Assembly (NCBI RefSeq): GCF_019320115.1
Contig: NC_089584.1
Span: forward strand, 73,687,533 to 73,751,532
Source: Miscanthus floridulus
Lineage: Eukaryota > Streptophyta > Magnoliopsida > Poales > Poaceae
Reading direction: 5' to 3'
Length of the DNA stretch: 64,000 bases
Shown: positions 26,615 to 27,199 of the stretch, one piece after another
How positions within the stretch are numbered: the stretch's first letter is position 1
Layout: every line of letters starts with the position of its first letter
The notes under the pieces: model-generated
Databases searched by the model: none
Seen by the model: only the letters and a program-made list of their open reading frames with translations
What the model was told of the DNA's origin: nothing
Made by a program: the position numbers and the translations under genes

Positions 26615-27199
26615 ATGGCGCGCACGAAACGCACTGCTCGCAAGTCCGCTGGAGGTAGGGCGCCTCGTCACCGTTTAGCTCCTCGTGAGCCCCGTCCTGA
26701 GCCTACTGAGGCGGAAAGGCTGAGGGCAGAGCTGGCTCAGGTGACCGCTGAAAGGACTGCAGTTCAGCAGCGTTTGGAGCAAGTCACGCAAGAAAGGGAC
26801 CAAGAGACCCTTGAGGTTCAGAGATTGACAATTGCTCACCGCAACTGTGAGCGTATGTTGGTTCACATGCTGAACCAACGGAATGAAGCCTGGCACGAGG
26901 AGAATGTGTTGAGAGCAAGGCAGGCTGAGCTAGAGCAGCAGTTGGCAGCTGCGGAAGAGTACAATGACAATCTCCATGAGGAGGTTCACCTACTGCATAA
27001 TCAACTTCACCCTATCCTGCCACCAGATGATGTGAATGAGATGGGTTCTGGTGTCATCATGGCTGAAGGTGATGATGACATGGAAGTCAATGGACCTGAG
27101 GACGCTCCACCTGATGAGGAGGAAGATGAGGAGTTAGAGCCTCCTAGTGATGAAGATGGAGGAGAGATCCTCGACACTGACTCCGAGGACGATGCGTAG
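26615..27199 (+). CDS. Histone H3 tail-mimic / coiled-coil / acidic-tail protein of element C
   Basis: This intact 194-residue frame precedes gag. Residues 2-22 read [19 protein letters not shown] plus LA. Aligned to the canonical H3 tail they match at 16 of 21 positions after the initiator Met, without gaps. K4, K9, S10, T3, T6, R2, R8 and R17 of H3 are kept; K14 and K18, the main acetylation sites, are R and H. Residues ~31-132 form a long charged heptad-type coiled coil ([20 protein letters not shown]...). Residues 151-194 are very acidic, 24 D/E of 44, as in histone chaperones. I chose the ATG at 26615 over an upstream in-frame one at 26579 because the mimicry begins exactly there and a splice acceptor precedes it. 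No RT, gag or known retroelement domain is present. Proposed role: dimeric decoy or recruiter for H3-tail readers or writers in the nucleus (inference). Chance similarity is very unlikely. Confidence 0.85.
   Translation: [194 protein letters not shown]

Follow-up and report, generated by a model that had tools for sequence, protein, structure and literature searches.

A predicted gene of a Tekay-like LTR retrotransposon of Miscanthus floridulus encodes a protein with a histone H3-like N-terminal tail

Introduction

Part of the extra ORFs of Poaceae chromoviruses is reportedly partially similar to a histone H3 gene (Steinbauerova et al. 2011, Genetica 139:1543). H3-like extra ORFs are thus probably in print already and not new in kind, and the original prediction, according to which no retrotransposon protein of this type had been described, is probably wrong on this point. 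No paper on the precise H3 tail of a retrotransposon protein, its conservation or its function was recognised in our literature search, and the word "histone" is absent from the main text of three papers citing Steinbauerova et al. 2011, including PMC11728184. As far as the available part of PMC11728184 goes, the 5' extra ORFs (aORFs) of Poaceae Tekay/chromovirus elements are located between the 5' LTR and gag on the sense strand, and their products have a long helix and disordered ends, as does the product of the locus described here. In the literature, as far as it was accessible, these products are termed proteins of unknown function.

Two further systems are close in kind. Viral and cellular histone mimics are, in the accounts available, non-histone proteins that present a short H3-like motif of the ARKS type, and one claim based on a short motif has been disputed (PMC10833455, available in part). 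The VANC proteins of Arabidopsis VANDAL transposons are extra proteins, encoded by the transposon, that counter silencing, according to the parts available of PMC5735166 and PMC10398659. A wider question is how high-copy retrotransposons persist under silencing by H3K9me2 and DNA methylation in large plant genomes.

In this study, an extra ORF in a 64,000-nucleotide stretch of the M. floridulus genome (the whole stretch analysed, hereafter the window) was compared with further copies of its family and with sister families elsewhere in this genome, with metagenome proteins, and with the H3 genes of the host.

Results

Element C and its extra gene

By sequence criteria, the open frame at 26615-27199 is confirmed, with a predicted product that begins with an H3-like tail (Table 1). 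We take it to be a genuine gene of element C, a Tekay-like LTR retrotransposon with a putative chromodomain. Judged in the same way, element C is a young, Tekay-like LTR element. Features of a Ty3/gypsy chromovirus are present, namely TG..CA LTR ends, a target-site duplication, a primer-binding site (presumably of the tRNA-Met type), and the order gag-PR-RT-RH-INT, and a purine tract is found as well. The aORF is on the sense strand, 3' of the 5' LTR and 5' of gag, in a frame separate from gag-pol. Pfam matched Chromo at gag-pol residues 1356-1399 with an E-value of 0.0059 and 16.9 bits, which is below the cut-off of 25.1. Read by eye, the end of gag-pol contains RVTRTR and ERDATWERE, which fit the Tekay motifs given in the available part of PMC3350952, and the chromodomain is without the first and third cage aromatics; type II chromodomains are described as being without cage residues in the parts seen of PMC3350952 and PMC6317226.

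Table 1. Features of element C and of its extra ORF, in window coordinates
Feature	Position	Strand	Basis or remark
Target-site duplication CCACT, left copy	21193..21197	.	right copy 36678-36682
5' LTR of element C (TGTAACA...TGTTACA)	21198..25861	+	99.91% identical to 3' LTR
Primer-binding site TGGCATCAGAGC	25862..25875	+	read from sequence
T-run and CAG adjoining the ATG (putative 3' splice site)	26603..26614	+	
5' extra ORF (aORF), 194 aa: H3-like tail, coiled coil, acidic end	26615..27199	+	open frame with translation
H3-like tail, residues 2-22 (= H3 1-21)	26618..26680	+	sequence comparison
Codons 2-17 (= H3 1-16); 14/16 residues common to sister families B and C	26618..26665	+	
Predicted coiled coil, residues 32-131	26708..27007	+	structure prediction, heptad register
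Predicted disordered acidic end, residues 132-194	27008..27196	+	structure prediction, composition
gag-pol frame: gag, zinc knuckle, protease, RT, RNase H, integrase, chromodomain-like end	27760..32019	+	
3' LTR of element C	32015..36677	+	paired with 5' LTR

Several other observations were made in the window. The first part of gag in element C (27612-27760, by eye) is out of frame with the remainder of gag-pol, so that the gag of this young copy looks broken near its start; an ATG within 27612-27760 is also directly 3' of a T-run and CAG. Element D (44323-58872) is seemingly a non-autonomous relative, with LTRs at 44323-49236 and 53956-58872 that are 95.2% identical and a leader 78% like that of element C. 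It was considered as a second aORF carrier and rejected, as the similarity found in its 4.7-kb interior is limited to the leader, with none found to the aORF or gag-pol. A fragment of a related LTR at 62198-63902 on the minus strand includes about 1.1 kb that is 91% identical to 24362-25440 of the element C LTR. Lastly, two decayed minus-strand elements, at 4213-7320 and 37301-40333, have RT-like and integrase-like matches to the gag-pol of element C; in DNA the two are about 64-68% identical to each other where aligned, and the former contains a Pfam RVT_1 match at 6712-7128.

An H3-like tail followed by a coiled coil and an acidic end

In an ungapped comparison, residues 2-22 of the aORF protein agree with plant H3 at 16 of 21 positions. 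The BLOSUM62 score of this tail against H3 is 80, and none of 200,000 shuffles of the residues after Met scored as high, the best reaching 50. When PDB chain sequences were searched with phmmer, the top match was histone H3 (best E-value 0.00032; residues 1-24). The placement of an H3 tail at the exact N-terminus of the extra gene, as originally predicted, thus agrees with both shuffles and phmmer. K4 and K9 of H3 are kept, K14 and K18 are replaced, and 10 of the first 31 residues are K or R.

The resemblance ends with the tail. No histone family was matched in Pfam, and in place of a histone fold residues 32-131 are predicted to form a single helix (mean pLDDT at least 94 in every block of ten from 31 to 130), with disorder at both ends. 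One heptad register runs across the 100 residues of the helix, which none of 20,000 shuffles equalled, and residues 151-194 hold 24 D/E and no K/R. The earlier description of the non-histone remainder as a coiled coil followed by an acidic tail with 24 D/E in 44 residues is therefore borne out by pLDDT, heptads and composition.

An in-frame ATG at 26579, 12 codons upstream, was considered as the start and rejected, given that a splice-site-like CAG adjoins the ATG at 26615; some copies (L006-L008) moreover differ in length by 1 base upstream, which also disfavours the earlier start. AG directly before the aORF ATG is kept in 73 of the 74 unique copies described below, and the preceding base is C or T in the same number (73/74). 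The putative 3' splice site suggests that the protein is probably made from a spliced mRNA.

Copies of the family in the genome

The genome searched comprises 2.68 Gb in 2,420 contigs. A search by protein score gave 12,328 candidates, the best 150 of which are all at least 89% identical to the window's protein; contigs C1 to C19 carry most of the matches listed. Since this list had been selected by protein score, a second set was picked by the non-coding stretch 27204-27560, for which 40 matches were scored out of 991 candidates and 30 were taken, one being the window's own copy. All 30 flank-picked copies keep the ATG after YAG and a recognisable tail, so that relatives lacking the tail, which would have spoken against the original prediction, did not appear among them. 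Residues 1-22 are identical to those of the window in 23 of the 30, and at least 185 residues are read before the first stop, again in 23.

For rate comparisons, 88 loci were reduced to 74 unique ones and the flank-picked set to 24 (the window's copy, L001, and 23 others, the remaining seven repeating loci already counted). In the 74 copies pN/pS was 0.42 (0.29-0.52) for the tail, 0.15 for the coil and 0.30 for the acidic end, and the corresponding values in the 24 flank-picked loci were 0.31 (0.13-0.55), 0.16 and 0.36. Upon correction by methylation context, with rates taken from flanking non-coding DNA, the nonsynonymous/synonymous ratio was about 0.42, 0.22 and 0.41, respectively. The tail of the window's family is constrained, though no more strongly than the coil. 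The proposed comparison of residues 2-22 with the rest of the protein thus gave a constrained tail together with a tighter coil, and inside this family the tail was not found to be the more tightly held of the two.

Single-step nonsynonymous variant codons number 19 in the tail, and 15 of them are transitions, as the decay of methylated cytosines would produce; in another eight variant codons the difference involves more than one base. R6L and A12T are among the changes that occur. K5 and K10, which correspond to K4 and K9 of H3, are unchanged in all 74 unique copies, which alone proves little because K codons have few methylation-prone sites.

As a separate observation on the 74 copies, synonymous differences were 2.34 times the prediction from flanking non-coding DNA in the coil, 1.45 times in the tail and 1.11 times in the acidic end. 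The excess in the coil perhaps reflects recombination between families.

Sister families and the tail pattern genome-wide

A degenerate pattern for MARTKxTARKS occurs at 2,409 genome sites (host H3 genes are counted in, as are a few sites whose free codon is a stop) and at none when read backwards. About 100 sites, all on one contig, were listed, and about 20 of these (by eye) have the codons of the window's family; most of the others are exact H3 sequence at codons 1-11 and fall into a few dispersed sequence types. Sixteen MARTKQ sites were chosen, six being read over 1,000 bases and ten over 140 bases. YAG stands directly before the ATG in all 16, and 18-20 of the first 22 residues are identical to H3 (Met included, codons 1-11 being exact by choice). 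At the unforced positions T12 is present in 15, G13 in 14, G14 in 16, A16 in 13 and P17 in 16. The position of H3 K14 (residue 15) is R in 15 sites and K in one, that of K18 is never K, and positions 18 and 19 vary.

In the six longer sites the tail leads into a domain some 100 residues long, followed by a linker and a coiled coil; EYN..LHEE is common to this coil and to the window's protein. Both copies of sister family C also have an acidic end. In-frame stops occur in three of the six. From the shared ORF architecture we infer that these sites represent retrotransposon families. Families B, C and D were found by the tail pattern, to which families that had lost the tail would be invisible.

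Between B (L100) and sister family C (L102), codons 2-17 differ by seven synonymous changes over 13.7 sites and no nonsynonymous change over 34.3 sites, all 16 residues being identical, in a comparison in which codons 2-11 of B, C and D could not differ in residue, as they were fixed by the search pattern and the choice of sites. Elsewhere B and C share 3 of 7 residues in codons 18-24, 58 of 103 in the middle domain, and 24 of 70 in the coil. The window shares 14 of 16 residues of codons 2-17 with either family, with a pN/pS of 0.11-0.14. In the unforced codons 12-17, silent and replacing bases number 2 and 0 for B-C, 3 and 1 for B-D, and 1 and 1 for C-D, and in codons 18-24 B and C differ by three silent bases and by seven bases in residue-changing codons. 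These numbers, small as they are, point to a constraint that ends near residue 17 between families. The pattern looked for in the original prediction, a tail that stays constant while the coil drifts, is matched between B and C, where it is suggestive only, with codons 2-11 fixed by the choice of copies, and is not seen within the window's family.

A dsRBD-like middle domain in the sister families

For one sister copy AlphaFold2 predicted a helix at 36-47, strands at 57-65, 68-77 and 89-95, and helices at 98-116 and 160-260. The middle domain thus has the predicted order a-b-b-b-a, with a pLDDT of about 59-72 by blocks and an alignment of four sequences. In a Foldseek search, eight of the first ten PDB titles named dsRNA-binding-domain proteins or Dicer complexes (best E-value 0.0018, none at 0.001 or below); Loquacious and plant DRB7.2/DRB4 are among the top titles, and plant DRB3 and HYL1 rank lower. 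Pfam at an E-value of 10 gave neither a dsRBD family nor any other match for the middle domain in three sister proteins. With low to moderate confidence, the six sister copies may be read as adding a dsRBD-like domain between tail and coil. According to the part seen of PMC11728184, the 5' aORFs of maize Tekay and sorghum Sb7 have weak structural similarity to a DRBM protein, which fits such a domain. The window's protein is without it and looks like a short form relative to the sister families.

Metagenome relatives

Metagenome protein matches at an E-value of 10 or better numbered 228 for the window protein, 737 for a profile and 125 for a tail-region query, and the best 120 of each were drawn. 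Among the resulting 233 proteins 124 have the tail anchor, 119 with at least 11 H3 matches and five below that; the other 109 have no recognisable tail anchor, and many of these begin downstream of the tail, by gene-caller starts or true loss. The 119 were split by hand, roughly by source, into groups of 71 and 48. The position of H3 K9 is K in 71/71 and 46/48, and that of K4 is K in 71/71 and 41/48, with R in six of the 48. R occupies the position of K14 in 69/71 and 44/48, and H that of K18 in 68/71 and 47/48.

One group is more H3-like than the other, e.g., P0143 retains T11 and Q19 of H3. For 29 proteins of this group, mean identity to the window was 0.80 in the tail and 0.72 in the coil, and the tail was higher in 20 of the 29 (31 were picked by hand and two dropped for too little coil; the comparison is gapless, so that indels lower some coil values). 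In P0163 and P0221 the reading frame enters the H3-like tail from another leader upstream, as though the start had shifted or splicing differed. No relatives were confirmed in viral and prokaryote contigs.

Origin of the tail

When the genome was searched with H3, 97 matches were found among the best 150 of 3,861 candidates, 18 of which are identical full-length H3 (hand count). In all nine intron-containing host H3 loci read, codon 24 is the last of the first coding exon and GT comes next; CAG stands directly before the ATG in three of the nine, as it does in the element, and TAG in two more. In the element proteins, similarity to H3 wanes over residues 18-24. Sharing of synonymous codons with the best host H3 gene was 13/18 for sister family C (P 0.001), 11/18 for B (P 0.001) and 12/19 for D (P 0.006), values obtained with one copy per family and uncorrected for the six host genes tried. 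For the window's own tail the best P was about 0.065, which is not significant and does not amount to nucleotide-level proof of H3 capture. Overall, a host H3 gene is the probable source of the tail, perhaps through capture of an H3.3 coding exon of 24 codons together with its 3' splice site, which is plausible and not proven.

Discussion

Our tentative preference, held at somewhat less than an even chance, is that the H3-tail mimic acts as a decoy or adaptor for host readers or writers of H3 K4 and K9 and would thereby blunt silencing based on H3K9 methylation. The initiator Met is removed before Ala in N-terminal processing, and its removal would expose A1, as in H3. The disordered tail would then be displayed on the long coiled coil, the probable dimerisation of which would show at least two tails, along with the acidic end. 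The protein would act in the nucleus, where its presumed partners are readers and writers of H3 K4 and K9; binding these would weaken the H3K9-methylation silencing of the element. The R at the position of K14 cannot be acetylated, and the retention of K4 and K9 in an H3-like setting, together with R at 14, fits readers or writers of these two lysines.

A wider proposal, possible and rather unlikely, is that a large group of grass retrotransposon families encodes a silencing suppressor with two arms, an H3 1-16 decoy and a dsRBD-like module, on an oligomerising rod. K4 and K9 would be open, K14 locked as R and the tail held by selection, and the second module would be like that of plant Dicer partners, so that chromatin-based and small-RNA-based silencing might be blunted together. 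The window's family would have dropped the RNA arm and kept the chromatin arm.

Among the alternatives to a decoy or adaptor, tethering of the element's complex ranks next and is itself improbable rather than probable: the tail would dock the particle or integration complex on H3-tail readers and so guide import or integration into chromatin. Because the chromodomain of element C seems to be without its usual methyl-lysine cage, a second chromatin contact would be useful. The partners of type II chromodomains are stated as not known in the parts seen of PMC6317226 and PMC3350952, the gag-pol end bearing Tekay-type motifs of the latter, and Tekay 5' aORFs have predicted nuclear localisation in the available text of PMC11728184. 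However, the aORF is a separate frame from gag-pol, and its protein need not be part of the particle.

Less likely again is that the tail is a historical passenger, i.e., a captured host exon that now serves only as a basic stretch for nuclear localisation or RNA binding, its H3 likeness being irrelevant. The ten K/R in the first 31 residues, the occurrence of R6L, A12T and K4-to-R changes, and a tail no more constrained than the coil in the window's family are all compatible with this, but a generic basic stretch would hardly keep its exact order through silent changes, as seen between B and C (seven silent, none replacing; ten codons forced). It is quite improbable that the protein is histone-chaperone-like, with acidic end and coil handling histones while the H3 tail occupies or competes for that site: the acid-rich last 44 residues and the acidic ends of both copies of sister family C would suit it, but Pfam gave no chaperone family and acidic ends are common. 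Chance resemblance or artefact is practically negligible and was rejected, given 0 of 200,000 shuffles, 2,409 genomic sites against none in the control, and the metagenome homologues.

If the decoy or adaptor reading holds, a conserved H3-tail mimic encoded by the element would be a testable answer to how such elements persist, by way of which reader or writer is bound and whether silencing is lifted. It would also give a specific hypothesis for the 5' extra ORFs and suggests a route from a host histone exon to an element gene.

Compared with the tail of host H3.1/H3.3, to which the window's protein owes its likeness over 16/21 residues, the element proteins are without a histone fold, and the likeness gives way at 18-24 to a dsRBD-like domain and/or a coiled coil. 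To our knowledge, VANC proteins have no H3 tail. By description, VANCs are sequence-specific (PMC5735166, PMC10398659, in the parts seen), which sets them apart from the protein described here. The window's form also differs from the Poaceae Tekay aORFs in being without the dsRBD-like domain that maize Tekay and Sb7 weakly show, and the precise tail, the retention of K4 and K9, K14R, the splice-site and exon match and the constraint tests are absent from the account of aORFs in the available part of PMC11728184. In contrast to the ARKS-type mimics, as far as these are described in the sources available, the likeness here extends over about 16-22 residues, lies at the N-terminus, and is found in an LTR retrotransposon.
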